Virus record (IMG/VR): IMGVR_UViG_3300042891_000977
Span: 1-21,953 of that record
DNA length: 21,953 bases
Source: a virus
Direction: 5' to 3' (one strand)
The notes under the pieces were generated by a model. That model was not told the DNA's origin and searched no databases. It saw nothing but the letters and a program-made list of their open reading frames with translations. The stretch's first letter is position 1; each line of letters opens with the position of its first letter. Shown one piece after another: positions 3,019-21,724 of the stretch. The position numbers and the translations under genes are program-made.

Positions 3019-4809
3019 ATGTTTAAAGTAAAAGAATATAAAGAGGAAAATTCCGAAGATGATAAAGTAATATGGACTTCCGCGAAAGTTGAAAAACTCC
3101 TTGTGGCAATGGAAGAAGGTTATGCTACGGCAGAACATCCATTTTATGAAGGAGATCCAAATTATCGAAAAGGAAATATCGTCTTTGAATATACGGATTG
3201 GGAATACGAAGAAATAAAGAAATGTGCTAAAGACATCATTCATTTTGCCAATCATTATTGTACAGTAATGACCGATGAAGGTTATATGAAAATTAATCTT
3301 CGTCCTTACCAAGAAGATGTACTTCGATCATATCAAGCAAATAGATGGAATATCTTTATGGCATCTCGTCAGATTGGTAAAACCATCACATCATCAATCT
3401 TCTTAACTTGGTATCTCCTATTTCACTTTGATAAAAACGTACTTCTTATGTCCAATAAGGGTGCCACCACCAAAGAAATCATGGATAAGATCAAAGCTAT
3501 CGTTGAAGGTCTTCCATTCTTCTTAAAACCAGGTGTTAATAAGAAAGACGTTATGACCATGATATTTGATAATAAATGTCGTATCATTGGTCAGAATACT
3601 ACAAAAACTGGTGGTATTGGATTTACCATCCATTTGCTATTTATAGATGAGTTTGCGCACATTCCAGAAGGAATTAAGAGAACCTTCTACGAAAATGTAT
3701 ACCCAACGCTATCATCATCTAAAATATCCAGAGTAATCATAACGAGTACGCCTAATGGATTTGATCTATTTCATGATTTATACAGTTCAGCTGTCGATGG
3801 AACTAACGAATATAAAGCGATGCGAGTCGATTGGTGGCAGGTTCCTGGTAGAGATGAAGAATGGAAAGAGAGAGAGATTGCTAATTTAGGTTCGCTTGAA
3901 GCATTTAATCAACAATATGGTTGTCAATTCTTATCGTCATCGAATCTTCTACTTTCATCCGATGAACTTAAAAGACTTAAGAGAGATGAGGTTGAATATA
4001 TATTCCATGAATTTGATGCACTCGATGATTTAGGTTTAGATTATTCTCAACTAAAATGGCACCCAGATTTTGATCCATTATATATTGAAGATCCCAAAAG
4101 ATTTTTTGTATTTGGAATAGATCTGGCCGAAGGAATAGGACGCGACCATTCAGTGATAAATATATTCGAACTTGATTCTTTATCATACGAAGATATCGAA
4201 AAACTAGAATCTCCTGGTGGAATCACTGACTTCTTTTCGTTAAAGCAAGTCGGTTTATTTCGTTCAAATATACATTCAATCGAGAATTTTGCAAAAGTTC
4301 TTTATACAATGTCGGTTAAAATATTTGAACAAGAAAATCTTCGTTTAGTTATTGAGTACAATGTTTATGGTGCAGAGTTGATGAAAAACCTGATTACGCT
4401 TTATCCAACATCCAATGATTTTGATGAGGATTCGGTAGTTAGATATCACCATCGAGTAGGAGCCAAAGTTAAACAACCCGGTCTTCGATTGAACAAAGAT
4501 CTTAAAAAGATTTATTGTGAAAAGATGAAAGCCTTAGTTATGTCTGGTAAAATCCAGCTAAATGAGAAACAATCTATACACGAAGCCTCTTTGTTTTCTA
4601 GAAATCCTACTGGAACATATTCAGCACAAACTGGAAATGATGACATCATCATGACAGCAGTTTCGGTATCATCTTTCTTTGATACTTTAGATTTTGCCGA
4701 TATCGTAGAAGAGTTCTTCGAATTCTTAGACGATGAAAAAATTGCCAAAATTGAAGAGATGATAGATGAAATCGGAGATGACAATGGAGAAATATATGAT
4801 ATTTTTTAG
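3019..4809 (+). CDS. terL: Large terminase subunit (packaging ATPase/nuclease), T4 gp17-like
   Basis: Motor that pumps DNA into the prohead and cuts the concatemer. The ATPase domain has a Walker A-type motif S-R-Q-I-G-K-T (116-122), Walker B L-L-F-I-D-E-F (206-212, Glu211 catalytic) and the coupling motif S-T-P-N-G (243-247), all in the arrangement of T4 gp17. The C-terminal RNase H-fold nuclease shows Asp368 (F-G-I-D-L-A-E-G), Glu446 (V-I-E-Y-N) and Asp541/542 (N-D-D-I-I-M), matching the gp17 acidic triad. Length 596 is close to T4 (610). The tail of the protein is strongly acidic. It follows the deacetylase gene by 3 nt, so terS, the deacetylase gene and terL probably share one transcript. 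Confidence 0.96.
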   Translation: MFKVKEYKEENSEDDKVIWTSAKVEKLLVAMEEGYATAEHPFYEGDPNYRKGNIVFEYTDWEYEEIKKCAKDIIHFANHYCTVMTDEGYMKINLRPYQEDVLRSYQANRWNIFMASRQIGKTITSSIFLTWYLLFHFDKNVLLMSNKGATTKEIMDKIKAIVEGLPFFLKPGVNKKDVMTMIFDNKCRIIGQNTTKTGGIGFTIHLLFIDEFAHIPEGIKRTFYENVYPTLSSSKISRVIITSTPNGFDLFHDLYSSAVDGTNEYKAMRVDWWQVPGRDEEWKEREIANLGSLEAFNQQYGCQFLSSSNLLLSSDELKRLKRDEVEYIFHEFDALDDLGLDYSQLKWHPDFDPLYIEDPKRFFVFGIDLAEGIGRDHSVINIFELDSLSYEDIEKLESPGGITDFFSLKQVGLFRSNIHSIENFAKVLYTMSVKIFEQENLRLVIEYNVYGAELMKNLITLYPTSNDFDEDSVVRYHHRVGAKVKQPGLRLNKDLKKIYCEKMKALVMSGKIQLNEKQSIHEASLFSRNPTGTYSAQTGNDDIIMTAVSVSSFFDTLDFADIVEEFFEFLDDEKIAKIEEMIDEIGDDNGEIYDIF

Positions 4810-4864: not shown

Positions 4865-7800
4865 ATGGCAATATCACCTAGTCTACAACAATTCAAATCC
4901 TCAGGTGTCTATCGTTTGGAATTTGACAAAAGTCAAATTACCAACATCCCATCTGAGACAATCCGTTTAATTATCGGATTCTCAAAAAAAGGACCTTTTA
5001 ATACTCCGGTTCTTTGTAAAGACACTGTCTTCTTCAAAGAAATTTTCGGAGATATTGATACTACATTAGAAAGAAAAGGTTCGTTCTTCCACAGAACGGC
5101 TCTTGTTTCTCTTGATCGTGGTCCGGTTATTGTATTGAACCTATTGAATCTTGACGATACTTTAGATCAATCACAATTCCGTTCTATTTCTACTGCGTCT
5201 TGGCAAGCCAATTCACCAGTTAAATATGCTCCAGTATCAAATTACTTTAACCAAGATAAATTCTGGTTTACTGATGCTCAAGCACTTATTGACACTGCTG
5301 ATAACTCTGATTACCAATCAGTTGTTGCTCAAAGATTACTTAACGTTGCAAACGTTGGTAGAAAAAACATCTCAATTTTTACTAAGAAATCAACAACTTT
5401 AGGTTTTGATGTATTAGCTAAAGATTGGTACGGAACTGGTAAAGTGCCAGATTTCATCAATGAAAACGATTACATCTCTGATTACATGATCGATTTGATT
5501 ATCGTTGAAGGTGACTTCTCAGATTACCAATCCCTTGCAATCGATCCTATCTACGGAACTTACTTCGATTCAACTGGTTTGAAAACAACCATCTCTGATT
5601 CTTTTGGAAATTCTTTAGACGGATTAACTCAATTCTTAAACTTAAATTCAGTTAACGTACTTGGTGTTTACACTGGTTGTTTAATTCCTGAATTCCAAGA
5701 CAAAAATGGTAATAACCTTTTCATCCAAGATCTAGTTAACCTAGAAACTTCTAAGACTGGTTTATTACTAGGTATTAACCAAGAAACTATCGATGATGCT
5801 CCTGAAACTATTGGAGATGATTTGATCGACTTAGTTGGTCACGGTATTGAATCTGAAGAACCAACTGTGGTAGATTTCTTATCTTACTACGGTTCAATCG
5901 TATCTGCAATTCCTTATGTAGCTGCAACCGGTATTTATAGCTTAGTAGTTGGTGCTACTTATAGTTCTACTCTATGTGCTGGTGCTCAGGCTATGATGAT
6001 CGCTTCTGCTTCATTAACCGGCGCTTCTTCTACAAACGGTTGGAACTCTAACGTAGGTCACTTTGATACTTTATTAGTATATGGTCCTTCTGCTTCACTT
6101 CCTGCTGGTTATTCTTCTAAATTTACTAGTGCTACTGAATTCGCTACTTTCCGTACCGATATCTCAGTAGATAACACATTTATTAAAGCCGGTGCTTCGA
6201 ATGGTGTTGCAGGTGCTTCAGGTAACTACTCTTACTTATCATCTGAATCTTATGATTCTTCAACGGATATCTTAACACTTAAGATCTCTAACGTTGCTGG
6301 TGCTGGTGTTACTGGTCCTACTTCAGTTGCTCAAGGTTACTATCGTTTATTCGCTACAGGATTAACTGCTGGTGGTACTGCTTCTTTACCTCTTATCAAA
6401 TCAGTAAATTTCAACTTCGCTGAAGGTGGTAATTTATTCAATGGGGTTGCAAATGATCTTTATCAAGCTAACCTTTCAGGTATTATAACTGATGGAGATA
6501 AAATTAAAATCAACAACACTGGAGCTACTGCAGTTGCTTATGCTGAATTCACTAGAGTTACTGCAAACGACTTTACCGGTGCTACCTTTACTAATGCTGC
6601 TGCATTCGGTAATGAGGCTCCTGTATTAAATGCATTCACTAACTACATTGAAGTTAATGCTTATACTAACTCAGATTTAAGTAGTGGAGCTACTGCAATT
6701 CTTCCACAAACAACTTATGTGGTTAACACTTTAACTGGTGATATCAACGAATCTTTCCCTCTATGGGGTGGAACTTCTTACACAAATCCTACTAACGTAG
6801 TTTGGGTAGATAATGGTTCTACTGGTCCTTTAGGATTGAATGGTTTCAATGGTCAAATCATTAAAAATCAATTGTTACTTGAGAACTTCGGTGGAACTGG
6901 TGGTGCTACAACTATCAATCCTACTACTGGAAAATCTCGTTTAACTAGAATTCTTTCAGTTAGTGAAGTATCTGATCCTACATCTGCTCTTTACAAAAAG
7001 ATCAAGATTACAACCGTAGATCCTATCTACATTTCAGGAACTAGTGAAATTGAAAGATATAAAGAGGCTTCTAACTTTGTAACCCACTACCGTGTTACTG
7101 CACTTAAAGGTTATACTTTAAGAAGTGGACAAATGCCTGATGGAAGTACTACTCGTCAAAATGAGATTCTAGATGTTATGTACAATAGTAATATCGCGGC
7201 TGCTCTTGCTGATCGTGAAACTATTACTTTCCGTTACATCATCGATTCATTCCAAGGAACAATCGAACCTGCAACTAAGATTCGTTTAACTAAACTTGCT
7301 AAGAATCGTCAATCCGCATTGGCAATCTGTAATATGCCTTCGGTGAAACAATTTAAAGATAGTACCAACCCTCTATTCAAATTAAACTCATCTACTCAAT
7401 TTGATGCTGCTTATATTGCTGATGGTGGTAACCTTTCATTGAATCCTTCTAACATATTCACTTTACCAGGTATTGCTGATGGTGCTAACTACTCTGCTTT
7501 CTATGGTCCTAACTTAACTATCAGAGAAGCTGGAAAAAATACTTCAGTTCCTTCTGCCGCTTATGTTGGTAACCTTTATATCGACAAATACACACAAGCA
7601 CTTCCTTACTCAATCGTTGCTGGTCCTCGTAGAGGTGTGGTAACAGGAACTGGTCTTGTAGGTGTTGAATATAATTTCGATAGAACAGATCTAGATTCAA
7701 TTGAACCATTTGGTTACAACGCAATCGTTAACAAAAGAGGTTTTGGTTTAACTATTAACGCTAACCAAACTGCTCAACAAACTATAAAATCCGCTCTTTC

Positions 7801-8125
7801 ACAAGTTCACGTAAGAGAGTTGTTAATTTACATCCAAGACGGAATTGAGGCTATCCTTAAAAATTACCGTTGGGAATTCAATACTGCTAACAATCGTTTA
7901 GAAATTAAAACTTTAGCAGATAACTTCCTATCACAAATTCTTGCTGATGGTGGAGTTTACGACTTCCAAAACATCATGGATACTACTAACAACACTACTG
8001 AGATCATTGATAACAACTTTGGAATCCTTGATACTTACATCGAACCTGTTAGAGGAATGGGTATCTTAGTTCACAGAACTACAATTCTAAGAACTGGTGC
8101 TATTTCAACTGGTAACTTTATGTAA
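4865..8125 (+). CDS. gp18: Contractile tail sheath protein, T4 gp18-like, enlarged
   Basis: Forms the contractile outer sheath of the tail. The C-terminal region is diagnostic: V-H-V-R-E-L-L, then a Y-D-F-Q-N-I-M-D-T-T-N-N-T stretch and Y-I-E-P-V-R-G match the end of T4 gp18 (VCDTTNNTPSVIDRN...FYIQPARS). The N-terminus also has the sheath start pattern (gly-val, then I-I-G-F-S-K-K-G-P and an F-G-D turn). At 1086 residues it is far longer than T4 gp18 (659). The excess lies mainly between residues 370 and 720, which are rich in Gly, Ala, Ser, Thr and Asn and look like extra beta-rich surface domains. Codons such as GGT, GCT, ACT and AAC are used more uniformly than in neighbours, as expected for a highly expressed virion gene. 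A late-promoter-like box precedes it and a hairpin follows it. Confidence 0.93.
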   Translation: MAISPSLQQFKSSGVYRLEFDKSQITNIPSETIRLIIGFSKKGPFNTPVLCKDTVFFKEIFGDIDTTLERKGSFFHRTALVSLDRGPVIVLNLLNLDDTLDQSQFRSISTASWQANSPVKYAPVSNYFNQDKFWFTDAQALIDTADNSDYQSVVAQRLLNVANVGRKNISIFTKKSTTLGFDVLAKDWYGTGKVPDFINENDYISDYMIDLIIVEGDFSDYQSLAIDPIYGTYFDSTGLKTTISDSFGNSLDGLTQFLNLNSVNVLGVYTGCLIPEFQDKNGNNLFIQDLVNLETSKTGLLLGINQETIDDAPETIGDDLIDLVGHGIESEEPTVVDFLSYYGSIVSAIPYVAATGIYSLVVGATYSSTLCAGAQAMMIASASLTGASSTNGWNSNVGHFDTLLVYGPSASLPAGYSSKFTSATEFATFRTDISVDNTFIKAGASNGVAGASGNYSYLSSESYDSSTDILTLKISNVAGAGVTGPTSVAQGYYRLFATGLTAGGTASLPLIKSVNFNFAEGGNLFNGVANDLYQANLSGIITDGDKIKINNTGATAVAYAEFTRVTANDFTGATFTNAAAFGNEAPVLNAFTNYIEVNAYTNSDLSSGATAILPQTTYVVNTLTGDINESFPLWGGTSYTNPTNVVWVDNGSTGPLGLNGFNGQIIKNQLLLENFGGTGGATTINPTTGKSRLTRILSVSEVSDPTSALYKKIKITTVDPIYISGTSEIERYKEASNFVTHYRVTALKGYTLRSGQMPDGSTTRQNEILDVMYNSNIAAALADRETITFRYIIDSFQGTIEPATKIRLTKLAKNRQSALAICNMPSVKQFKDSTNPLFKLNSSTQFDAAYIADGGNLSLNPSNIFTLPGIADGANYSAFYGPNLTIREAGKNTSVPSAAYVGNLYIDKYTQALPYSIVAGPRRGVVTGTGLVGVEYNFDRTDLDSIEPFGYNAIVNKRGFGLTINANQTAQQTIKSALSQVHVRELLIYIQDGIEAILKNYRWEFNTANNRLEIKTLADNFLSQILADGGVYDFQNIMDTTNNTTEIIDNNFGILDTYIEPVRGMGILVHRTTILRTGAISTGNFM

Positions 8126-8219: not shown

Positions 8220-8774
8220 ATGCCAGGATTACCACATTTTCTAAACAGTAAAGCGGCTACTAAATACTACGAACCGTTTTATCAAAACTTGTTTGAGGTA
8301 AACATTCTTCCACCATCATCTATTTCTGGTGGAGAAATCTTGATTGAGCATGTAAACAAAATTGCAGGTTTAACACAAGATAGAGGTTCAGAAGCAACCA
8401 CTCAACAATACAAGTTCGCTAAAAGATCTTATGCAATGGGAGTTCCTACTGATACTGTTACTGATTTAACAGTTAGTTTCTCTCTTAACTTAAATGACGC
8501 AAACGAACTTTACGTATACAAAACTTTACGCGATTGGTTCCGTTTAATCTATAACCCACTTACCGGTGAACAAGGTTTAAAGAAAGATTATGTAGGTACA
8601 CTCGTTGTTACAAACTACAATCGTGCCGGAGATATTTTCTGGCAACGTACTTTCCATGACTGTTTCCCTACAGGAGATATCGGAGAACTAGCTTCTGATT
8701 ACTCAGGTGGTGAAAAAGTTGATATGCCAGACATTAAATTCCGTTCTGACTGGTGGGAAGAAAACATCGTTTAA
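8220..8774 (+). CDS. gp19: Tail tube protein, T4 gp19-like
   Basis: Subunit of the inner tail tube through which DNA passes. Seen: N-L-F-E-V-N-I near the N-terminus (T4 gp19 has NLFQVEI), a central strand-rich region, and a C-terminal F-P-T-G-D-I-G-E-L-x-x-D-Y followed by D-I-K-F-R-S-D-W-W-E, matching the gp19 pattern LWPTNVGELQLDWD...LALDYWE. Length 184 compares with 163 in T4. It follows the sheath gene as in T4, with its own candidate late promoter and a strong terminator after it, so it may form a one-gene transcript. In T4 the portal gene gp20 comes next; here the peptide-tagged small-gene cassette takes that place. Confidence 0.92.
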   Translation: MPGLPHFLNSKAATKYYEPFYQNLFEVNILPPSSISGGEILIEHVNKIAGLTQDRGSEATTQQYKFAKRSYAMGVPTDTVTDLTVSFSLNLNDANELYVYKTLRDWFRLIYNPLTGEQGLKKDYVGTLVVTNYNRAGDIFWQRTFHDCFPTGDIGELASDYSGGEKVDMPDIKFRSDWWEENIV

Positions 8775-8871: not shown

Positions 8872-8913
8872 GTGGAGAACCACATACCTACATTCGAATC
8901 ATTTTTAAACGAA
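8872..8913 (+). other. Predicted capsid-targeting peptide, copy 1
   Basis: Encodes MENHIPTFESFLNE. The L-N-E end fits the (L/I)-x-E cleavage rule of T4 gp21 protease. The DNA CACATACCTACATT (8881-8894) is nearly identical in the other copies. Confidence 0.65.
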
Positions 8914-9282
8914 TCAAAAGCCGTTGATTCCGCAATGGATAAAATAGAAGTTTTGCCTAAAGGATCTACATTCGAAGATGCAAAACGAATAGATGGTATA
9001 TTCGATAGAAGCAAACATACTTGGAGTGAAGTTATTGAAACTTTTGAAAAAAACCAAAAGGCGGCAAAACCTAAAATGGTAAATGTAAAAGATATTCAAA
9101 TAACTCAACCAAATATTCAAAGTAATAAAGTAAAGGCAATGATTGAAAAATACAACAAATTGCCTTTAATTAATGTAGTTCAATTTCCTGATGGATTGGC
9201 AATATATGATGGACATCATCGTCTATTAACTGCTTGGTCCATGGGAGAAACTAAAATCAAAGTTAATCTCGTAAAAATATAA
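8872..9282 (+). CDS. ParB/sulfiredoxin-like domain protein with predicted capsid-targeting N-terminus
   Basis: 136 residues. The GTG start is fixed by alignment with the next three products, which share the opening peptide H-I-P-T-F-x-x-F-L-N-E. Cleavage after Glu14 by a T4 gp21-type prohead protease would release the mature protein. Residues about 70-135 resemble the ParB N-terminal/sulfiredoxin-like fold: a V-N-V-K-D-I opening strand, a K-V-x-x-M-I-E-K-Y helix, then D-G-H-H-R-L (113-118) and a closing G-E-T-K-I-K-V-N-L-V strand. This fold occurs in CTPases, nucleases and DNA-modification partners; which activity applies cannot be read from sequence. Inferred: the protein rides inside the capsid and enters the host with the DNA, where it could act on the phage or host chromosome. 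First gene of a four-gene block. Confidence 0.78.
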   Translation: MENHIPTFESFLNESKAVDSAMDKIEVLPKGSTFEDAKRIDGIFDRSKHTWSEVIETFEKNQKAAKPKMVNVKDIQITQPNIQSNKVKAMIEKYNKLPLINVVQFPDGLAIYDGHHRLLTAWSMGETKIKVNLVKI

Positions 9283-9288
9283 AACATA

Positions 9289-9327
9289 ATGGGACACATA
9301 CCAACATTTAACGAATTTTTAAACGAA
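9289..9327 (+). other. Predicted capsid-targeting peptide, copy 2
   Basis: Encodes MGHIPTFNEFLNE. The DNA CACATACCAACATT (9295-9308) differs from copy 1 at one base. Confidence 0.65.
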
Positions 9328-9507
9328 TCCAAAAAGCACAAATTAAGTGTAGGTGATTGGGTTGAATTTGATAACGATAAAGCTAGAGTAGAAAAGGTTT
9401 ACTTTGCTCGTAACGGTAATGCCATGTATACTATCGGTAGTTCTAAACACGGAAATATTGATGTTGAAGCTGAAGATCTAGACGAAAACAAAACAAAAAC
9501 CGCATAA
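9289..9507 (+). CDS. Small protein of unknown function with predicted capsid-targeting N-terminus
   Basis: 72 residues. It opens with M-G-H-I-P-T-F-N-E-F-L-N-E, so the mature part after Glu13 would be about 59 residues. That remainder (L-S-V-G-D-W-V-E-F, then V-E-K-V-Y, a turn, and M-Y-T-I-G) looks like a small SH3/Tudor-like beta barrel, and the tail is acidic then lysine-rich. I do not recognise a family. It starts 6 nt after the preceding gene, and its TAA overlaps the next ATG by one base, indicating coupled translation within the cassette. Confidence 0.72.
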   Translation: MGHIPTFNEFLNESKKHKLSVGDWVEFDNDKARVEKVYFARNGNAMYTIGSSKHGNIDVEAEDLDENKTKTA

Positions 9508-9548
9508 TGAACAATCACATACCTACATTTGATACATTTCTTAATGAA
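9507..9548 (+). other. Predicted capsid-targeting peptide, copy 3
   Basis: Encodes MNNHIPTFDTFLNE. CACATACCTACATT at 9516-9529 is identical to copy 1. Confidence 0.65.
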
Positions 9549-9983
9549 GAAAGAGTATATGGAATGTTCAATGACTCTCAAGGAAAACCATCTAAAATAT
9601 CACAAGAAATTCTAGATATTTGTTTAAAAGCATTTCCCAAAACTATCATTGATAATATTGAATCAGTAGAAGCTGCTGGTTATGGAAAAACCAACATGGT
9701 TTCGCCTCCTACTATTTCTAATAAAGGTCAATCACGAGGTTATAACGATTACACATCAATTACATTAATCTTTCAAAAACCAATGGGTAGAATGAAAGTT
9801 ACCGAAATGTCAGTTGGTATTCGTAAAAGAACTTCTGGTCCTGGAACCGGATATATCGCAATTGATATGACTGCTAGTGGTCATATGATTCCTGGAGCTG
9901 AATGTGCAGTTGAATTCTGGTCAGATGATCCAGTTCATTTTTTAGATAAATTATACAATGAAAAAATCAAAGCATTTTTATAA
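9507..9983 (+). CDS. Protein of unknown function with predicted capsid-targeting N-terminus
   Basis: 158 residues, not recognised. It opens with M-N-N-H-I-P-T-F-D-T-F-L-N-E; cleavage after Glu14 would leave about 144 residues. The rest is mixed helix and strand: a helix near 30-50, a Gly/Ser/Asn-rich loop near 70-90, then strands (T-S-I-T-L-I-F, a basic G-I-R-K-R-T, Y-I-A-I-D-M) and a final helix ending A-F-L. No catalytic motif stands out. It shares a TAATG junction with both neighbouring genes, so the last three cassette members are likely translated together in fixed ratios. Confidence 0.72.
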   Translation: MNNHIPTFDTFLNEERVYGMFNDSQGKPSKISQEILDICLKAFPKTIIDNIESVEAAGYGKTNMVSPPTISNKGQSRGYNDYTSITLIFQKPMGRMKVTEMSVGIRKRTSGPGTGYIAIDMTASGHMIPGAECAVEFWSDDPVHFLDKLYNEKIKAFL

Positions 9984-10021
9984 TGAAACATATACCTACA
10001 TTCGAAGACTTCTTAAATGAA
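9983..10021 (+). other. Predicted capsid-targeting peptide, copy 4
   Basis: Encodes MKHIPTFEDFLNE. The DNA (CATATACCTACATT, 9989-10002) is the most diverged of the four at the third base. Confidence 0.65.
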
Positions 10022-10240
10022 GGATTTATTAAACCTTATGGTGAGAAAATGAAAGTTGAAGACTTTGCTAAAATCGAGGTAGGGAGTGAAATTCTTTATG
10101 CTGGTGCACCTTATGAAGTTGTTAAAAACGATGGAGTTACTCTACATTTGAAACCTTCTAAGAATTCTTATGGAATCACCGGAAAAGCTCATAAAGTTAA
10201 TTTCTCTATGTTCAATACCGCTGGAGCAATCCGTGATTAG
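9983..10240 (+). CDS. Small protein of unknown function with predicted capsid-targeting N-terminus
   Basis: 85 residues. It opens with M-K-H-I-P-T-F-E-D-F-L-N-E; cleavage after Glu13 would leave about 72 residues. The mature part (I-E-V-G-S-E-I-L-Y-A-G-x-x-Y-E-V-V, then V-T-L-H-L-K-P) again suggests a compact SH3-like barrel, broadly like the 72-residue protein two genes upstream though not clearly homologous. It is basic overall, which would suit packing with DNA. Its ATG overlaps the previous TAA. Last gene of the cassette. Confidence 0.72.
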   Translation: MKHIPTFEDFLNEGFIKPYGEKMKVEDFAKIEVGSEILYAGAPYEVVKNDGVTLHLKPSKNSYGITGKAHKVNFSMFNTAGAIRD

Positions 10241-10326: not shown

Positions 10327-11688
10327 TTGAAATTAAGACAAGGGTTATTATTCCTAAAATCTCTACACACCAGATCTAAATCCGATGAAGAAGTTCTTCA
10401 ATGGATTGAATCTAGACGATCATTAGTTAAGCATACAATTCAACAAATTGATCTTAATAAACTAAATGGTTGGAAATTCTACGATCATAAAATTGAACAT
10501 ACTTCTGGTAAATTCTATCAAATTCATATTAGACGTAATGAGTTAGATGGAAGAGGATGGGATCAACCTATAATCAATCAACCTGAAATAGGTATTCTGG
10601 GATTTATTACCAAACAAATCAATGGGGTACTTCATTTTCTAGTTCAAGCTAAAATTGAACCAGGAAATATCAATATAGTTCAGCTATCACCTACTGTACA
10701 ATCCACTAAAAGTAATTTTACAAAAGTTCATGGTGGAGCACTTACACCATTTGTAGAATACTTCTTAAAAGGCGAATCGAGAATCCTAGTGGATCAGCTA
10801 CAATCCGAACAAGCTAGTAGATTTTTTCAAAAACGTAATCGTAATATCATCATCGAAGTTGAAGATGAGTTATCACATGAAAATTATTTATGGATGACCC
10901 TTGGAGATCTTGTTGCATTAACTAGATATCCTAATACAGTGAACATGGATAGTCGAACCGTTTTAAGTTGTATTCACTTTGGTTCATATTCATTTGAACA
11001 TTTAGAGCTAAGAGATTTTCTTGGTGGAATTCAACATGATTCCTCTTGGATAGATTCTCTACTTCGTAAAGACGTATATCAGAAATCATATCCAGAAATT
11101 CTATCTTTAATCACCGATCTTAAGTTTAGAAGAGAGGCTTCAACCAAGCTAATTTATCTTTCGGAAACACATGATTGGAATTTAATAGATGGTAAGATAG
11201 TACACAAAGATGAGAAGTATTTCGACGTAGTGGGTTATCGTATATTCATTGAAAATCGTGAATCTTCTCAATGGGATCAACCTCTTATTCAACCTAAATC
11301 TACTGGAATATGTTGTTTCTTTGCTCGTAAATTTGATGGAGTATTTCACTTATTAGTTCAACTAAAAGATGAAATTGGATCTTTTGATGGTGTTGAAATG
11401 GCACCAACAATTCAAATGTCTGAAGAAAATCTAGATCTATCTCCTTTCTTTGAGCAATACAGCTCTTTAATAAATACTGATTCTGTTTTATTTGATGTTA
11501 TGCAATCCGAAGAAGGTGGAAGATTTTATCAAGAACAAAATAGAAATATTGTCATAGAAGTTAATGAAGATTTAGAACTTCCAAGGAATTACATTTGGAT
11601 GACTCTTAATCAACTAAAAACCTTCTTACAATATAACAATTACGTGAACATACAAACACGTTCAATAATGTCATCTTTACCTTTATGA
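10327..11688 (+). CDS. NDP-hexose 2,3-dehydratase (EvaA family)
   Basis: Predicted to convert dTDP-4-keto-6-deoxyglucose to the 3,4-diketo-2,6-dideoxy sugar, the committing step to 2-deoxysugars. The protein is an internal duplication, as in EvaA/TylX3. Repeat 1 (about 45-220) has H-T-S-G-K-F-Y, W-D-Q-P-I-I-x-Q, the lipocalin-like G-V-L-H-F-L-V-Q-A-K-I-E-P-G-N and Q-L-S-P-T-V-Q. Repeat 2 (about 275-450) has W-D-Q-P-L-I, G-V-F-H-L-L-V-Q and M-A-P-T-I-Q. Both repeats carry an R-F-(F/Y)-Q-x-x-N-R-N-I-(I/V)-I-E-V block and end with W-M-T-L plus VNxxxRxxxS. 453 residues is normal for the family. The only usable in-frame start upstream of conserved sequence is TTG 10327; ATG 10322 is out of frame and stops at once. 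The stop overlaps the next gene (ATGA). Known from antibiotic and O-antigen sugar pathways; surprising in a phage. Confidence 0.9.
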   Translation: MKLRQGLLFLKSLHTRSKSDEEVLQWIESRRSLVKHTIQQIDLNKLNGWKFYDHKIEHTSGKFYQIHIRRNELDGRGWDQPIINQPEIGILGFITKQINGVLHFLVQAKIEPGNINIVQLSPTVQSTKSNFTKVHGGALTPFVEYFLKGESRILVDQLQSEQASRFFQKRNRNIIIEVEDELSHENYLWMTLGDLVALTRYPNTVNMDSRTVLSCIHFGSYSFEHLELRDFLGGIQHDSSWIDSLLRKDVYQKSYPEILSLITDLKFRREASTKLIYLSETHDWNLIDGKIVHKDEKYFDVVGYRIFIENRESSQWDQPLIQPKSTGICCFFARKFDGVFHLLVQLKDEIGSFDGVEMAPTIQMSEENLDLSPFFEQYSSLINTDSVLFDVMQSEEGGRFYQEQNRNIVIEVNEDLELPRNYIWMTLNQLKTFLQYNNYVNIQTRSIMSSLPL

Positions 11689-12641
11689 AAGTAGCTATAC
11701 TAAATTGCTCAGATATTGGAAAACGCAGAATGATTCCTGCATTTCAGGCAATCCCAGGTATTGAAGTAGTTATTGTTTGTAGTAGAGATATTCATAAAGC
11801 TCAAAGATATGCAGAGGAATTTGGAATTCCAAAATGGACAGACAATCCGGATGATATTATTGGAGTTGATCTAGTTTATATCTCATCGCCTCCATCTGAA
11901 CATTTTGATTCTATTAAAACATTTTTACGAAGAAAAATTAATGTTCTTTGTGAAAAATCCCTAACAATAGATGCCTATCAAACAACATATCTAATTAATT
12001 TAGCAGATAAAAACGGAGTTATACTTCAAGAAAATTATGGATTCCCTTTTCATACTCAATGGAACTGGATAAATGAAAATCTTAATCGAATAGGTGAGAT
12101 CTTATACATTAGAAGTGGATTTGAATTTCCTCCAAGAGACACAAAAACAGATTTTCGTTATAAGGCTGCTCTTGGTGGTGGTGCTCTTTTTGATGCCGGT
12201 GGATACCCCATCAAGTTAGCTTCTTTGCTAATGGGAACACCACAAAGGCTAGATGCGGTTACTCATCTATCAAAATCTCTAGATATCGATCTTTCAGGAA
12301 GAACATTTATCATCGATGATATGGGAATATCTGCATTTTTAACCTGGAGTTTTGAATCAACTTATCGTTGTGACGTGGAAATCGTTGGAACTCGAGGAAC
12401 TATTAAAGCGGATAAAATATTTACTCCTAGAGTAGATGAATCTGTTAAAGTAAGCCTTTCTCTTATTGAAGGAAATGTTAACGAATCACATGAATTTGTT
12501 TGCGATCATTTCGTGGAACTTATTCGAGATCTTAAAATCAAGATAGAGAATAAAGATAATTCTCATCATAAAAGTATATTAAAACAATCAAATTGGCAAA
12601 CATATGTATCGTCTACTAGTATCAGAACCTTCACTAACTAA
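11685..12641 (+). CDS. Gfo/Idh/MocA oxidoreductase, predicted NDP-hexose 3-ketoreductase
   Basis: Predicted NAD(P)H-dependent reduction of the C3 keto group made by the 2,3-dehydratase. The Rossmann start reads N-C-S-D-I-G-K-R-R-M-I-P-A-F; the usual GxGxxG is altered, but the S/A-D-I-x-x-R-R-x-x-P-A pattern is typical of sugar 3-ketoreductases such as KijD10. Seen further: C-E-K-S (89-92) with the catalytic Lys91 of the EKP motif, and G-G-G-A-L-F-D-A-G-G-Y-P (164-175), giving Asp170 and Tyr174 of the active site. 318 residues is family-typical. ATGA overlap with the upstream gene and a 38-nt overlap with the downstream gene mark it as part of a compact operon. The pairing with a 2,3-dehydratase is what makes the ketoreductase reading stronger than a general oxidoreductase call. 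Confidence 0.85.
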   Translation: MKVAILNCSDIGKRRMIPAFQAIPGIEVVIVCSRDIHKAQRYAEEFGIPKWTDNPDDIIGVDLVYISSPPSEHFDSIKTFLRRKINVLCEKSLTIDAYQTTYLINLADKNGVILQENYGFPFHTQWNWINENLNRIGEILYIRSGFEFPPRDTKTDFRYKAALGGGALFDAGGYPIKLASLLMGTPQRLDAVTHLSKSLDIDLSGRTFIIDDMGISAFLTWSFESTYRCDVEIVGTRGTIKADKIFTPRVDESVKVSLSLIEGNVNESHEFVCDHFVELIRDLKIKIENKDNSHHKSILKQSNWQTYVSSTSIRTFTN

Positions 12642-13686
12642 CTTTGAGGAATTTGCAAATCTTGCAAAAGAAGTTTGGGAAAGTGGAATCCTAACACATA
12701 ACGGACCTAAAGTCAAAGAACTTGAACAAAGGTTAAAAGAACAATGGCAGATTCCTCATCTATCATTAGTTACAAACGGAACTATTGCACTCGAAGTTGC
12801 AATGAGAGCTTTAGAACTTCCTAAAGGAAGTGAAATTATTACAACTCCATTTACCTGGATTGCAACGGCATCGGCTATTCAATGGCAAGATTATGAACCT
12901 ATTTTTGTTGATATTGATCCTTATACACTTAATATCGATCCATCTAAAATTGAAGAAAAAATCACAGAAAGAACATCTGCTATTTTAGCAGTTCATGTAT
13001 TTTCAAATCCATGTGATGTGGTTTCTATTCAAGAAATTGCAGATAAACATGCATTAAAAGTTATTTACGATGGTGCTCATGCCGTTGGTGTAAAATTCAG
13101 AGGTGTAGATCTTTCTCAATTCGGAGATATTACAACTCATTCATATCATGCAACAAAAATTTACAATACTGGTGAAGGTGGATCTATCATTACCAGAAAT
13201 CCTGAGCTAGCTAAACGTATAGAAAGACTTCGTTTCTTTGGTCATAACGAAACGAAAGATATTGTACATGAAGGAACTAATGCTAAAATGCATGAGATAT
13301 CTGCAGCAATGGGATTAGCTAATTTGAAGATGTTACCTAAAACGATTATACATCGACAGTTACTAACTCTTATGTATAAACATCGTATGGATGGTCTTCC
13401 GGTTCGTTTTCAAGAAATCAATAAAGACTCTTATAATTACTCATATTTCCCAATCATATTTGAATCAGAAGAACAATGTCTTAAAGTATATGCGGCATTA
13501 GAAGCAATTAAAATTATGCCTCGTCGTTACTTCTATCCATCGGTTAATGAATTCAAAATTTTTGATTCTCAACCATGTCCAGTTAGTGAAGATGTTTCAA
13601 AAAGAGTTCTTTGCCTACCATGTCATGATGGTGTAACTCTTATGGATATCGATGAAATTACCGCAACTATAATTAAAACCTTCTAA
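12604..13686 (+). CDS. DegT/DnrJ/EryC1-family PLP-dependent sugar aminotransferase
   Basis: Predicted to aminate a keto sugar nucleotide. Seen: N-G-T-x-A-L (58-63) for phosphate binding, Y-D-G-A-H-A (155-160) with the PLP-contacting Asp156, and S-Y-H-A-T-K (180-185) with the Schiff-base Lys185 followed by Y-N-T-G-E-G-G. The H-A-T-K-x-x-N-T-x-E-G-G form resembles VioA-type enzymes that act at C4 of dTDP-4-keto-6-deoxyglucose, so C4 amination is favoured over C3; this is an inference. 360 residues is full length. The start overlaps the ketoreductase gene by 38 nt; a slightly later start cannot be excluded. Known relatives make amino sugars of O-antigens, capsules and antibiotics. Confidence 0.92.
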   Translation: MYRLLVSEPSLTNFEEFANLAKEVWESGILTHNGPKVKELEQRLKEQWQIPHLSLVTNGTIALEVAMRALELPKGSEIITTPFTWIATASAIQWQDYEPIFVDIDPYTLNIDPSKIEEKITERTSAILAVHVFSNPCDVVSIQEIADKHALKVIYDGAHAVGVKFRGVDLSQFGDITTHSYHATKIYNTGEGGSIITRNPELAKRIERLRFFGHNETKDIVHEGTNAKMHEISAAMGLANLKMLPKTIIHRQLLTLMYKHRMDGLPVRFQEINKDSYNYSYFPIIFESEEQCLKVYAALEAIKIMPRRYFYPSVNEFKIFDSQPCPVSEDVSKRVLCLPCHDGVTLMDIDEITATIIKTF

Positions 13687-13687
13687 T

Positions 13688-14302
13688 ATGCACATAGTTA
13701 TAGGAGCTAATGGATTAGCTAAACAAGTACTTCCTTTGTATAATAGAAATCCTCGAGTTATCTTCTTTGATGATACTGATGAAGCAGAAGAGAACCTATA
13801 TGAGCATAAAATCATTCACGAACTTCAACCAATAAAGGACTATATTTCAGAAGGTGGTGATGTAATTTTCTCAATTTGTATTGGAAATCCTAAATGGCGA
13901 GAGTACTTCTTTAATCATCTAGTTAACTTAGGCGCCACACCAATTAATATCTTATCGGAATTATCTTCCATTCAAGAGAGATCCGAGATTGACACAGGGA
14001 ACATCTTATTAGACTATACCTTGGTGGAAACTGATGCAAAAATTGGAATAGGCAATCTTATAAATTGTTATGCAGGTTTATTCCATGATTCAGAAATTGG
14101 AGACTTTAATGAGATCATGCCAGGAGCTAAAATTCTAGGCGGTGCCAAAATTGGAAACTTTTGTAGAATAGGAACTAATGCAACAATTCTTCCAAAAATC
14201 CAAATTTGCTCTGGTGTTATTATTGGAGCCGGAGCCGTGGTAACCAAAAATATTACCGAGCCAGGAACTTATATTGGAATTCCTGCAAGGAAACAAGGAT
14301 AA
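13688..14302 (+). CDS. PglD/NeuD-family sugar N-acetyltransferase (left-handed beta-helix)
   Basis: Predicted to acetylate the amino group placed by the upstream aminotransferase. The N-terminus (I-V-I-G-A-N-G-L-A-K-Q-V) is the small Rossmann-like nucleotide-sugar domain of PglD/NeuD proteins. From about residue 95 come hexapeptide repeats (I-D-T-G-N-I, A-K-I-G-I-G, S-E-I-G-D-F, A-K-I-G-N-F, S-G-V-I-I-G-A-G-A-V-V) that build the trimeric beta-helix and acetyl-CoA site. His133 in L-F-H-D-S-E-I-G-D fits the catalytic His. The ending P-A-R-K is family-typical. 204 residues is full length. It starts one base after the aminotransferase stop. O-acetylation or another acyl donor is possible, but an aminotransferase neighbour favours N-acetylation. 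Confidence 0.9.
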   Translation: MHIVIGANGLAKQVLPLYNRNPRVIFFDDTDEAEENLYEHKIIHELQPIKDYISEGGDVIFSICIGNPKWREYFFNHLVNLGATPINILSELSSIQERSEIDTGNILLDYTLVETDAKIGIGNLINCYAGLFHDSEIGDFNEIMPGAKILGGAKIGNFCRIGTNATILPKIQICSGVIIGAGAVVTKNITEPGTYIGIPARKQG

Positions 14303-14324: not shown

Positions 14325-14363
14325 ATGGAATTTTTAAAGTATAAAAACTTCGTTCTTAATGAG
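14325..14363 (+). other. Possible capsid-targeting peptide on the glycosyltransferase
   Basis: Encodes MEFLKYKNFVLNE. It lacks H-I-P-T-F but keeps the aromatic/hydrophobic pattern and the (F/V)-L-N-E end at the same distance from the start. Weaker than the four cassette copies. Confidence 0.45.
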
Positions 14364-15206
14364 CAAACTAAATGGGTTAATTTAGAAACCGTTAACGAAG
14401 CTGCACTTACTGCTACTCCAGATAAAGGTGTTAAGTTTGGTATCTGTATCACTACTTACAAAATTGATTCTGGTGGTAGACAAAATCACATGTCCACCGA
14501 AAAAGTTCTGAGAGAATGTTTAGAGTCAGTTAAAGCACAGAGTTGGCCAGAATGGAAAGTCTACATCATGGGTGATGCATATCCACAAGAAGAATGGCCG
14601 GAAATTGAAAAACTTGCTGCATCTATCGTTCCAAAAGATAAACTTTGGATGGATAATTTAAAAACGCCGGGAGAAAGAGACAAATATGATGGATCTATCC
14701 CGCATCTGACTGGAGGAAACACAGCGGCAAACGCTACCATCGCTCAAATGAAAAAAGATGGTATTAAATATTTTGCACGTCTTGACCATGATGATGCCTG
14801 GAAAACTGACCATTTAAAAACTCATGCTACCGCATATACACAATACCCAGAAGTTGTTTATAGTTTAACACAAGCCCGTAAGAAAAGAGTTAAAGGCGAT
14901 ACCGGTTCATACATGTATTTCCCGGACAAAGGAACTTATGAGAATGCGGAGAATAACTACACTTTAGGTCTTGGTGGACAATGTCATTCTGCAATGACTT
15001 GGAAAATGGAACCTTTAAAATATATCAAGTATCGTACTTGGGATCAGCAAAAAGCTACGCAACCACGTAGAAAAGAATGCTTTCCTGGCGATTGGGATAA
15101 CACCGAAAGAATTAAAAGAATCGTAGAAGATGATAGTAACAAGCACTCGATGATTTACATTCCAAAGTTAACTGTAAAATATCGAAATTCAGAAGGAAAA
15201 TTCTAA
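14325..15206 (+). CDS. GT-A (family 2-like) glycosyltransferase with capsid-targeting-like N-terminus
   Basis: Predicted nucleotide-sugar transferase. The GT-A core begins at about residue 36 (V-K-F-G-I-C-I-T-T-Y-K), has an L-E-S-V-K-A-Q-S-W segment typical of family 2, and a metal-binding D-H-D-D (154-157) following a Y-F-A-R-L strand. The preceding 13 residues, M-E-F-L-K-Y-K-N-F-V-L-N-E, end in L-N-E at the same position as the tagged proteins at 8872-10240 and also resemble T4 MKTYQEFIAE. After removal the catalytic domain would be intact. It directly follows the sugar cassette, so the acetamido-deoxysugar is the likely donor; the acceptor (virion protein, host glycan, DNA) is unknown. A late-promoter-like box precedes it. 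No signal peptide or membrane span is seen. Confidence 0.82.
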   Translation: MEFLKYKNFVLNEQTKWVNLETVNEAALTATPDKGVKFGICITTYKIDSGGRQNHMSTEKVLRECLESVKAQSWPEWKVYIMGDAYPQEEWPEIEKLAASIVPKDKLWMDNLKTPGERDKYDGSIPHLTGGNTAANATIAQMKKDGIKYFARLDHDDAWKTDHLKTHATAYTQYPEVVYSLTQARKKRVKGDTGSYMYFPDKGTYENAENNYTLGLGGQCHSAMTWKMEPLKYIKYRTWDQQKATQPRRKECFPGDWDNTERIKRIVEDDSNKHSMIYIPKLTVKYRNSEGKF

Positions 15207-15207
15207 C

Positions 15208-15783
15208 ATGAAAAAACTACTATTCTTATTAATCTTATGTCTTCCATTTTTTGGATATTCGCAAGATACATTAGTAAAACGACCAATCTATACTGTAAAG
15301 TATTCCCAATCTCTACAACAACCTCTTTGGTTAGAGTATTCAGTCAAGCACCGTGATTGTGGAGCAAAACGAGATGGAATGGATTTTTATACCGAAAAAG
15401 GAATTACAACAAGCGACAATGCTGATTATGCTGAGAACGTATACGATAAAGGTCATATGGCTCCTGCAGCAGATTTCTGTGTTAATCGCGAAACTCTATT
15501 ACTAACATTCTCATATTTGAATTGCGCTCTACAACACTACAAATTAAATAGAGGAGTTTGGAAACAACTCGAAGCAAACGAACGTGAGTGGTCTAAAACT
15601 GATTCATTAATTATTCGAATCGATGTTATATTTGAAAAGGGTGCCACTAAATTACCTAGTGGAGCAACGATCCCTACTGCTTTTAGAAAGACCATCACAT
15701 TCTATAACGCTAAAAAGAAGGTTGTTTACTACTTCAAAAATGAACCTCCTACAAAACCACTAGATGCTTATCTAGTTAAATAA
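15208..15783 (+). CDS. Exported DNA/RNA non-specific endonuclease (NUC1/NucA family)
   Basis: The first 19 residues are a classic Bacteroidota signal peptide (K-K, a Leu/Phe-rich core, ending G-Y-S-Q). The mature part has Y-D-K-G-H-M-A-P-A-A-D (79-89), the D-R-G-H-type motif with His83 as general base, then N105 in Y-L-N-C-A-L-Q at the position of the Mg-binding Asn, and L-N-R-G-V-W-K-Q-L-E (113-122), all in NUC1 order. At 191 residues it is compact for the family. It degrades DNA and RNA without sequence preference; export places it in the periplasm or outside. Possible roles are nucleotide scavenging, cutting extracellular DNA at lysis, or attacking the DNA of superinfecting phages. It begins one base after the glycosyltransferase stop and is closed by a strong terminator. 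Confidence 0.87.
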   Translation: MKKLLFLLILCLPFFGYSQDTLVKRPIYTVKYSQSLQQPLWLEYSVKHRDCGAKRDGMDFYTEKGITTSDNADYAENVYDKGHMAPAADFCVNRETLLLTFSYLNCALQHYKLNRGVWKQLEANEREWSKTDSLIIRIDVIFEKGATKLPSGATIPTAFRKTITFYNAKKKVVYYFKNEPPTKPLDAYLVK

Positions 15784-19198: not shown

Positions 19199-20557
19199 AT
19201 GAAAGTAGCCGAACAAAAAGTAAAGTCAGTAACTGAATATCTCGATACTGAATATTTAAGTTATGCAAAATATGTAGTAGAGAATCGAGCAATTCCATCC
19301 GTTATCGATGGATTTAAACCAACCCAAAGAAAGATTATTTTTACAGCAAACCGTGCATGGAAGAATGGAACAGAAAAACCATTTAAGATTTTTCAATTAA
19401 GTGGTAAGGTTGCGGTTGAATCTTTTTATCATCATGGTAATGCATCGCTTGATGCTGCAATTATTGGTATGGCACAATCATTTAAGAACTCCCTACCTCT
19501 TCTTGAAGAGATTGGTCAATTTGGTTCTTTACGATCTCCTGAAGCTGGTGCTCCTCGTTACATCTCTACCAAGTTATCTAAAAACTTCAGATTGCTTTAT
19601 AAAGATTTCGAGTTACTTACACCTCGAATGGAAGAAGGAAATGAAATTGAACCTGAATACTTCTTACCTATTATTCCTACTGTTTTATTGAATGGATCTT
19701 CTGGTATTGCGGTTGGTTTCGCAACTAACATTCTAAATAGAAATCCTATAGATTTAATTGATGCTTGTCTTGCGGTCGTTAATGGTAAGAAATATAAAGA
19801 ACCTTTGCCTTGGTGGAAAGACTTTAATGGAAAGGTTGAAAAAGTCGATGGCAGTGCATCATCATTTGTATTTCGTGGAATTTACGATGTGAAAGATACC
19901 ACAACCGTAGAAATCTCTGAACTTCCACCTTCAATGACCCTTGAGAAATACGACAATATACTTAATGGTCTTTTGGAAAAAGGAATCATTCGTCATTATG
20001 ATGATAATTGTTCAAATGGAATTAGCTATACCGTAAAAATTGGTAGAGCAGAAATGAAACAACATCAACCTCGTCTTGAAGGTTATTTGAAAATGGCTGA
20101 AGCTGAAACCGAAAATCTAACTTGCCTAGATGAAAATGGTAAGCTAATTATCTTCAAGAATGTAAATGAAATTATCAATTACTTTGTTAACTTTCGTCTA
20201 AGTTATTACGACAAAAGAAAACAATACTACATTGATTTATATACACGAGACTTAATCAGATTATCAAATCGTGCTAGATTTATTAAAATGGTTGTTGATG
20301 GTAAACTAAAAATTAATAACATTCCAAAAGCGCAAATTGAAGCCGAATTGATTAAACATAAATTCGATCAGTTAGATGGTTCATTTACATATTTACTATC
20401 TATGCCTATTCATTCATTAACGAAAGAAAAAATCGATGAACTACTTAAAGATGTTGAATCTAAAAAAGCAGAAATCGAAGAAATCAAAAAGTTAACGAAG
20501 GAAGAATGGTATAAACAAGATCTTATGGCTCTTAAAAAATCATTACAAACTAAATAA
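19199..20557 (+). CDS. gp52: Type II DNA topoisomerase medium subunit (DNA cleavage), T4 gp52-like
   Basis: GyrA/ParC-like half of the enzyme. The winged-helix region has Y-V-V-E-N-R-A-I-P-S-V-I-D-G-F-K-P-T-Q-R-K (25-45), the Y-H-H-G-N-A-S-L motif (77-84) and A-P-R-Y (118-121) with the DNA-linking Tyr121. The conserved G-S-S-G-I-A-V-G-F-A-T-N follows near 170. The C-terminal third is a long charged helical region, probably the coiled coil. At 452 residues it ends without a GyrA beta-pinwheel, as in T4 gp52 (about 440), so relaxation rather than supercoiling is expected. It begins 4 nt after the large subunit stop. Confidence 0.95.
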   Translation: MKVAEQKVKSVTEYLDTEYLSYAKYVVENRAIPSVIDGFKPTQRKIIFTANRAWKNGTEKPFKIFQLSGKVAVESFYHHGNASLDAAIIGMAQSFKNSLPLLEEIGQFGSLRSPEAGAPRYISTKLSKNFRLLYKDFELLTPRMEEGNEIEPEYFLPIIPTVLLNGSSGIAVGFATNILNRNPIDLIDACLAVVNGKKYKEPLPWWKDFNGKVEKVDGSASSFVFRGIYDVKDTTTVEISELPPSMTLEKYDNILNGLLEKGIIRHYDDNCSNGISYTVKIGRAEMKQHQPRLEGYLKMAEAETENLTCLDENGKLIIFKNVNEIINYFVNFRLSYYDKRKQYYIDLYTRDLIRLSNRARFIKMVVDGKLKINNIPKAQIEAELIKHKFDQLDGSFTYLLSMPIHSLTKEKIDELLKDVESKKAEIEEIKKLTKEEWYKQDLMALKKSLQTK

Positions 20558-20564
20558 TCAAACA

Positions 20565-20858
20565 ATGAATTACAAAAAACTATTCTTGGATGGTCTAATT
20601 ATAGTAGCCATCTTAACCGCATTAATTCCAACAACGAATTTAATCTATCAGCTAATGAATACTCCATCAGATATCGCTTTCATCGGGCCAGTTCTTTGGT
20701 TTGGTGTGATAGCTTTATCTTTATGGCTTATTATACAAAGAGCAAAATCAATTAGTACTAATTATAATCAATCAAAAGTATGGGAACCTACTCAGAAAAA
20801 AGTCATTGGGAAATCCAAAGAGAAAAAGAAAGAGAACAAGAAAAACAAGAACAATTAA
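20565..20858 (+). CDS. Small two-span membrane protein
   Basis: 97 residues. Two hydrophobic segments, about 9-30 (L-D-G-L-I-I-V-A-I-L-T-A-L-I-P) and 40-61 (F-I-G-P-V-L-W-F-G-V-I-A-L-S-L-W-L-I-I), are joined by a short loop. The last 30 residues are dense in Lys, Glu and Asn and should be cytoplasmic, placing both ends inside. The function is unknown. The adjacent band-7 protein is also membrane-anchored, so the two might act together. It could be a holin-like or membrane-remodelling protein, but nothing specific supports lysis. Confidence 0.7.
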   Translation: MNYKKLFLDGLIIVAILTALIPTTNLIYQLMNTPSDIAFIGPVLWFGVIALSLWLIIQRAKSISTNYNQSKVWEPTQKKVIGKSKEKKKENKKNKNN

Positions 20859-20881
20859 ACAAACAATTAAAAATCAAAAAA

Positions 20882-21724
20882 ATGGTAAAGAAAATTTTAA
20901 TCGGAATTGGTGCATTTATTGCATTGATAATTCTATTTCAATCATGTGAAAGAATCGATGCAGGACATGTTGGTGTAAAAGTTAATTTGTATGGAAGCGG
21001 TAAAGGTGTAGATGATGTTACTGAATGTACTGGTGTAGTATTCTATAATCCTCTATCTACTAAGATTTATGAATTTCCAACTTACATTCAACACAAAGAA
21101 TACAAGAAAACTGAAGATGTTGATAATTCATTTATCGTAAACTCGAAAGATGGTAGTGAATTTAGCGTTTCACCAATCATGAATTATTCAGTTCAACGTG
21201 ATAAAGTTCCTGCAATCTTTGCCAAATATCGTAGATCTCTTCCAGAAATTGAGGAAGGATTTTTAAAGACCGCGGTATATGATGCATTCCGATTGGCAAC
21301 TAATAAATACACAGCGGATGAATTAATATCTAATCGAGCAGTATTTGAAATTGAAGTTCGTCGATTATTAGAAGGACAATTATTGAAAGAAGGATTCATT
21401 ATCAATCAATTTACATCAAATCTAATTTATCCTGAAACTTTTAAACGTTCAATTGAAGCTAAAAACAATGCAGTACAATCTGCACTAAGAGCAGAAAATG
21501 AAGTTAAAACCGCTGAAGCACAAGCCAAAATTAAGATTGCAACTGCAAATGGTAATGCTCAAGCTATGTTAACTGCCGCAAAAGCTGAAGCCGAAGCAAA
21601 TAGTTTAAAACAGAAAACTATTACGCCAATGCTACTTCAATTAGAGTGGATTAACAAATGGAACGGAAAGTTACCAGAAACCATGTTAGGTGACAAAACA
21701 TCTTCCATGATTGGCATTAAATAA
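20882..21724 (+). CDS. Band-7/SPFH (prohibitin-like) membrane protein
   Basis: 280 residues from ATG 20882. An N-terminal membrane anchor (K-K-I-L-I-G-I-G-A-F-I-A-L-I-I-L-F) is followed by the SPFH entry pattern A-G-H-V-G-V-K-V-N-L-Y-G and the prohibitin-type Y-x-Y/F-x-P region. A long Ala/Glu/Lys-rich helix comes near 190-250 (A-E-N-E-V-K-T-A-E-A-Q-A-K-I, A-K-A-E-A-E-A-N), which in this family forms ring-like oligomers. The frame is open upstream to ATG 20780, which would add 34 charged residues overlapping the previous gene; 20882 puts the anchor at the very N-terminus and is preferred. Known bacterial relatives (HflK/HflC, prohibitins) regulate FtsH or organise membrane domains. Inferred: protection of phage proteins from proteolysis or membrane remodelling. 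Confidence 0.85.
   Translation: MVKKILIGIGAFIALIILFQSCERIDAGHVGVKVNLYGSGKGVDDVTECTGVVFYNPLSTKIYEFPTYIQHKEYKKTEDVDNSFIVNSKDGSEFSVSPIMNYSVQRDKVPAIFAKYRRSLPEIEEGFLKTAVYDAFRLATNKYTADELISNRAVFEIEVRRLLEGQLLKEGFIINQFTSNLIYPETFKRSIEAKNNAVQSALRAENEVKTAEAQAKIKIATANGNAQAMLTAAKAEAEANSLKQKTITPMLLQLEWINKWNGKLPETMLGDKTSSMIGIK

Follow-up and report, generated by a model that had tools for sequence, protein, structure and literature searches.

A repeated N-terminal peptide on unrelated proteins of a large T4-type phage is very likely a lineage-specific tag for capsid targeting and prohead-protease cleavage

Why do four adjoining phage genes with unrelated products begin with the same short peptide? The question was raised by a fragment of 21,953 bases (here called the window), which is the whole of its record and part of a large T4-type phage genome. 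Directly behind the tail tube gene, four ORFs open with M-x(1-2)-HIPTF-xx-FLNE, and the last residue of FLNE is number 14, 13, 14 and 13 in ORFs 1 to 4, respectively. No relatedness was found among the bodies that follow, and the ORFs abut, with stop and start overlapping or a gap within about 6 bases. An initial annotation, made from the sequence alone, had described four consecutive products sharing this peptide, with L-N-E ending at residue 13 or 14 in each; both statements held, and all four ORFs were confirmed. It had listed four copies only and had missed a fifth, divergent one at 14325. It had further proposed a capsid-targeting tag like that of T4, asked for a genome-wide motif search, and named the lack of a prohead protease as a finding that would refute the idea. 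The features are as follows:

3019-4809, + strand: large terminase, T4-type (context)
4865-8125, + strand: tail sheath (context)
8220-8774, + strand: tail tube gene, directly upstream of the tagged array
8872-9282, + strand: tagged ORF 1, 136 aa, GTG start; tag plus ParB/sulfiredoxin-like body (IYDGHHRLLTAW)
8872-8913, + strand: N-terminal tag 1, MENHIPTFESFLNE, followed by S; predicted cut after E14
9289-9507, + strand: tagged ORF 2, 72 aa, small body, no family
9289-9327, + strand: N-terminal tag 2, MGHIPTFNEFLNE, followed by S; predicted cut after E13
9507-9983, + strand: tagged ORF 3, 158 aa, alpha/beta body, no family assigned
9507-9548, + strand: N-terminal tag 3, MNNHIPTFDTFLNE, followed by E; predicted cut after E14
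9983-10240, + strand: tagged ORF 4, 85 aa, small body, no family
9983-10021, + strand: N-terminal tag 4, MKHIPTFEDFLNE, followed by G; predicted cut after E13
14325-15206, + strand: fifth, divergent tagged gene, glycosyltransferase family 2; tag MEFLKYKNFVLNE at 14325-14363

The motif stands at the default start of 4 window genes, compared with a mean of 0.075 after shuffling. Tag 3 is atypical in having a glutamate at P1' (NE/E; here and below, a slash marks the end of the tag or propeptide). The glycosyltransferase has another VNE site, with the E at residue 25, and its counterpart in a relative keeps the tag, as MEFLKYNNFILNE. The body of ORF 1 gave weak ParB-like matches in PHROG (E = 1.7e-3 and 3.6e-3), and its structure model (pLDDT 52) was of too low quality for any reading. 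The AlphaFold model of ORF 3 (mean pLDDT 72) showed a folded domain after a low-confidence N terminus, with no match in the PDB at E ≤ 0.001. Relatives of ORF 3 were found only in the two nearest contigs in a scan of close relatives, plus a 67% relative in the genome G002.

Since the window is a fragment, tag counts per genome were taken from near relatives, which were gathered by tail tube similarity. Three of them were read nearly whole: G001 (160 kb), G002 (254 kb) and G004 (294 kb), with tail tube identities to the window of 100%, 95% and 77%. The nearest, G001, carries the same tagged genes as the window. Because the named relatives infect Bacteroidota (Tenacibaculum, Chryseobacterium, Flavobacterium and Prevotella; the host of PAU is recorded as Sphingomonas), the host of the window phage is probably a member of the Bacteroidota as well, which is an inference. 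Membership in the bS21-encoding Bacteroidetes phage clades (PMC9723584) was considered and rejected, as bS21 (PF01165) was found in 0 of 5 relatives while the controls were positive.

The genome-wide search, run in these near relatives, revealed dozens of tagged proteins. Using the pattern aromatic-xx-aromatic-(x)-[LIVM]-x-E among the first residues, we counted 25, 40 and 56 tagged ORFs in G001, G002 and G004, compared with shuffled means of 0.8, 1.1 and 1.6 (maximum 6). The motif begins at residue 7 in most of them and is enriched 19- to 29-fold at N termini over the remainder of the same proteins; the consensus reads M-K-x-[IL]-x-x-[FY]-x-x-F-[LIV]-N-E/[SAG]. A motif-free test, in which the first 17 residues of all ORFs were clustered, gave largest components of 21, 40 and 67 genes in the three genomes (≤3 after shuffling). 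With T4 as positive control, the same test placed IPI, IPII, IPIII and gp61.1 in one component; another T4 component consisted mainly of homing-endonuclease-like proteins. At the DNA level, a pattern for the 13-residue form matched 12, 21 and 39 times in G001, G002 and G004, nearly always on the coding strand, and 22 times in LR756500, a metagenomic phage of 462 kb. The reversed pattern matched 0 to 1 times in G001, G002 and G004, and the forward pattern was likewise found 0 to 1 times in T4, KVP40, P-SSM2, S-PM2, Aeromonas 65, 121Q, Atu_ph07 and RM378 as well as in PAU, PTm1, pT24, MaF61 and Lak-A1. A stricter pattern occurred in 25 stretches of viral sequence, and the genomes of bacteria and archaea searched, 257 Gb in all, gave no match.

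A repeated sequence of this kind could also be a DNA-level element, i.e., a translation enhancer, a recombination hot spot or the trace of recent gene duplication, with its translation being incidental. In favor of this, tags of neighboring genes are more similar than those of distant ones (amino acid identity of 0.57 to 0.59 versus 0.44 to 0.51; permutation p = 0.0005 to 0.0025), and neighbors in G002 exceed the codon sharing expected (0.72 versus 0.56). They are, however, the only ones to do so: tags that share a residue otherwise share its codon at 0.57 to 0.66, compared with 0.56 to 0.62 expected from genome codon usage. Because codon choice inside the tags is near this expectation, selection acts on the peptide and not on the DNA. 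The residues F, F, N and E stay fixed while synonymous sites are otherwise near-randomized, and the bodies are not homologous. Based on this codon analysis the DNA-level element was rejected and can be regarded as all but excluded. Relatives that are 78 to 81% identical to ORF 1 have different tags; in its G002 counterpart, the body is 82% and the tag 31% identical. The likeness of neighboring tags, together with orthologous bodies bearing different tags, therefore suggests that tags are locally exchanged or homogenized while the cargo changes.

The end of the tag fits the cleavage rule of the T4 prohead protease gp21, (L/I)-x-E followed by a small residue. P2 is asparagine in 92 of 112 tags, and P1' is A, G or S in 74 of the 112 (66%, compared with a background of 19%), the search pattern having left both positions free. 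In the 16 residues behind the tag, a further [LI]NE occurs 2, 7 and 8 times in G001, G002 and G004 (0.5, 0.5 and 1.6 expected). That cutting actually takes place is inferred.

If the tag is cut in this way, a suitable protease should be encoded. The window itself contains neither a protease nor a capsid gene, and all evidence on both comes from relatives. A protease of the gp21 family (S77; PF03420 above the curated cut-off) was detected in nine of nine relatives and in six of seven named phages, so that the refutation by a missing protease does not apply. Scores in this clade are modest (40 to 51 bits, compared with 372 for the T4 control); the residues aligned to T4 His85 and Ser140, which we take to be the catalytic pair of gp21, are invariant in all 12 proteases aligned. 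In T4, gp21 cuts short N-terminal peptides off IPI, IPII, IPIII and Alt and 65 residues off the capsid protein (PMC9958956). The capsid propeptides of the clade end before the aligned mature arm in LYE/N, LNE/S or LNE/N, and that of the Chryseobacterium phage isolate MA9V-2 ends in FLNE/S, the same letters as the tag, where the T4 counterpart has FLTE/A.

Several further observations were made around the protease gene. In G001 (43467-45371), G002 (101682-103583) and G004 (245208-247121), the gp21-type protease forms one protein with a long C-terminal part of coiled-coil, scaffold-like character. This fusion comprises about 635 aa, or 1207 aa in MA9V-2, and contains an internal FLAE/S site; the T4 and PAU proteases are short and separate. 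A lysine/alanine-rich protein of 861 residues adjoining the capsid gene of G002 (106061-108646) ends in QFLINE, as if in a cleavage motif.

The tag differs between lineages. It has the 10-residue T4 format, of which T4 itself shows three copies, in the genome G005 (MKSYKSFLNE) and in MA9V-2 (MKTFTYFINEA and MKNFFQFINES), and we infer from their sequences that these tags bridge the window type and the T4 peptide MKTYQEFIAEA. The fixed-motif test gave nothing above chance in PAU, PTm1 and Lak-A1. For PAU, the conclusion that no tag is present proved wrong, as the motif-free test revealed a different tag, MK[ST][LI]xxL[YF]E, that is shared by about 20 genes, with many of these lying around the protease and capsid genes (100248-121069 and elsewhere). 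In the same test, PTm1 was negative (15 pairs versus 10 shuffled), Lak-A1 was weak without a convincing set (79 pairs versus 38 shuffled), and KVP40 and RM378 showed no tag set. That PTm1 and Lak-A1 lack a clear tag set despite having the same protease is a point against the tag reading.

Another explanation is that the peptide serves in docking or sorting to a target other than the head, such as a compartment built by the phage, the RNA polymerase of the host or a common chaperone, with LNE being incidental. Any short N-terminal motif common to unrelated proteins is compatible with docking. Against it stand the strong P1-P1' cleavage grammar, the same site in the capsid propeptides, the intermediates in T4 format and the T4 positive control, so that we consider this explanation very unlikely. 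The shared peptide is thus, with high likelihood, a lineage-specific tag for capsid targeting and prohead-protease cleavage; packaging and cleavage themselves are inferred, no virion proteomics having been found. The T4-like tag proposed initially is supported in that nearly every prediction testable at the sequence level was met, while presence in virions, cleavage and injection remain inferences.

We also analyzed what the tag is attached to. Among 129 tagged proteins scanned for domains, few bodies were recognizable and strong matches were rare. Recognized cargo comprises a RimK-like ATP-grasp plus zinc-protease-like domain, a KTSC domain, a cytidylyltransferase-like protein, a glycosyltransferase and the ParB/sulfiredoxin-like ORF 1; leucine-rich repeats occur among the tagged proteins of LR756500. 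The tagged protein at G004 109748 resembles a polyvalent-protein ADP-ribosyltransferase (ART-PolyVal; E = 0.0011, below the family cut-off). A PADLOC scan of the 129 proteins gave only weak single matches that cannot be interpreted. PHROG 2667, annotated as "internal head protein" and including the starts of T4 IPII and IPIII, matched tagged ORFs in both G002 and G004, with a best E value of 1.6e-5, although it also matched in 2 of 14 control genomes and did not match the four tagged ORFs of the window.

A head-targeting tag could also be carried mainly by consumable parts of the core or scaffold, or by DNA-condensing proteins, instead of injected effectors. Consistent with this, some tagged genes lie next to the genes for portal, protease and capsid and are conserved in the clade (e.g., G001 35531, G002 93264, G004 254777 and G006 74265), and the T4 proteins gp22, gp67 and gp68 are broken down inside the core (PMC9958956). 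In contrast, 101 of 176 tagged bodies are singletons without a relative among the others. Because most bodies are variable or absent even in near relatives and several are enzyme-like, an effector set fits better than a fixed core, and we regard the core explanation as unlikely. For the effector reading, the evidence tips modestly toward most tagged bodies being injected into the host, an inference made without infection data.

The surroundings of the array bear on a further initial claim, namely that the tagged set replaces the portal gene after the tail tube gene. This was only partly confirmed: the array occupies the place of the portal gene in T4, but the portal gene has moved elsewhere and was not exchanged for it. 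G002 and G004 have the portal gene in one block with those for the protease/scaffold fusion and the major capsid protein, and in G002 it is about 33 kb upstream of the tagged array. The site after the tail tube holds differing tagged arrays, with four genes in the window, ten in G002 and other sets elsewhere, and from this comparison of relatives we infer that it is an exchange site for them. Downstream of the array lie deoxysugar genes and then, as judged by eye, a two-subunit topoisomerase. The former (10327-14302) start with a two-domain NDP-hexose 2,3-dehydratase, after which inspection by eye suggests an oxidoreductase, a DegT-type aminotransferase and an acyltransferase-like gene; they possibly form a deoxyamino-sugar pathway, perhaps for glycosylation of DNA or a surface. 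The window also encodes a DNA/RNA non-specific endonuclease with a signal-like N-terminal stretch (15208-15783; PF01223, E = 4.6e-24) and an SPFH/Band-7 domain protein (20780-21724; E = 1.9e-21) adjoining the topoisomerase-like genes.

As a separate observation, small proteins were found with a copy of the arm at the N terminus of the mature major capsid protein (VNGMG..LPGNPG..TGSGD; L107, i.e., G001 20541-20777, G004 271529-272242, G005 76331 and G006 60488). In two of these proteins, a lysine run and a tag-like FKxFxDFI stretch come after the arm copy. They may be capsid-arm mimics, which is no more than a possibility at present. T4 gp61.1 (NC_000866 18966-19130, 54 residues) opens with a capsid-targeting-like MKTFKEFIKE, behind which the sequence is similar to the mature arm of T4 gp23 (GDSGGNPENISIGTTSGAVVNKGP compared with GDHGYNATNIAAGQTSGAVTQIGP), and we infer from its sequence that it represents the same design in another lineage.

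The closest known system is that of T4, in which IPI, IPII and IPIII likewise share a short N-terminal peptide (MKTYQEFIAE) on unrelated small proteins with highly variable bodies. The T4 tag also reads aromatic-xx-aromatic-[LIV]-x-E with a predicted cut after (L/I)xE before A, S or G, and a gp21-type protease is encoded. In internal proteins of T-even phages, the bodies have been described as highly diverse and the targeting sequence as the only conserved part (PMC3012670), a picture that the variable tagged bodies of the window clade match. Unlike the T4 peptide, the tag of this clade is three residues longer in most copies, has a nearly fixed N at P2, is present in tens of copies compared with about four, occurs in consecutive arrays and is attached to cargo that reaches about 500 aa and includes enzymes. 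T4 gpAlt, a packaged ADP-ribosyltransferase, compares with the ADP-ribosyltransferase-like protein at G004 109748, whose homology is weak and which lies outside the window. PAU, a related T4-type phage, repeats a tag of its own, which differs in sequence and is not recognized by the window motif. In the giant phages SPN3US and phiKZ, many inner-head proteins, with ejection proteins among them, are similarly processed by a gp21-like prohead protease (PMC5694885); several of their propeptides, however, exceed 100 residues and are not a shared short tag, and no 13-residue repeat has been described there. The literature searched, which left out most subscription journals, contained no description of the present tag, an earlier description not being excluded, and no proteomics, N-terminal sequencing or cryo-EM for any phage of the clade. 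The principle is already known from T4. Judged by the literature that could be searched, what is new is how many genes are tagged, that the cargo extends to proteins of about 500 residues, and that lineages have tags of their own.

In the mechanism that we propose, the tag would bring the proteins that carry it into the scaffolding core while the head grows, and the gp21-type protease would remove the tag after the terminal [LIV]-N-E at head maturation, a prediction based on the tag's own site, the protease and the sites in the capsid protein. By inference from T4, the bodies would stay inside the DNA-filled head, reach the next host cell together with the genome and be active there before the phage starts to express its genes. 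In this view they would be rapidly exchanged small enzymes and binding proteins, as expected of anti-defense or host-takeover factors, and the tag would have spread to about 25 to 67 genes per genome in this clade, compared with about 4 in T4. A bolder reading, toward which we lean with reservation, is that of a general protein-delivery program, in which one in-frame, 13-residue address-and-release tag serves some 40 to 67 exchangeable proteins per genome, each lineage's tag has evolved to match its own scaffold and protease, and the set of injected effectors can be read from the genome.

Little is known of the proteins that large phages deliver together with their DNA, since internal proteins show no obvious kinship and are not annotated. 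Provided that the tag acts as we infer, a sequence search would yield, for each genome, dozens of candidates for injected anti-defense or takeover proteins, nearly all without a known function. The T4 targeting sequence already serves to load foreign proteins into phage heads, and HIPTFxxFLNE, MKYIKEYEEFxxE, MKSYxxFLNE and MKTLxxLYE would, if the reading is true, be ready addresses for the same use.
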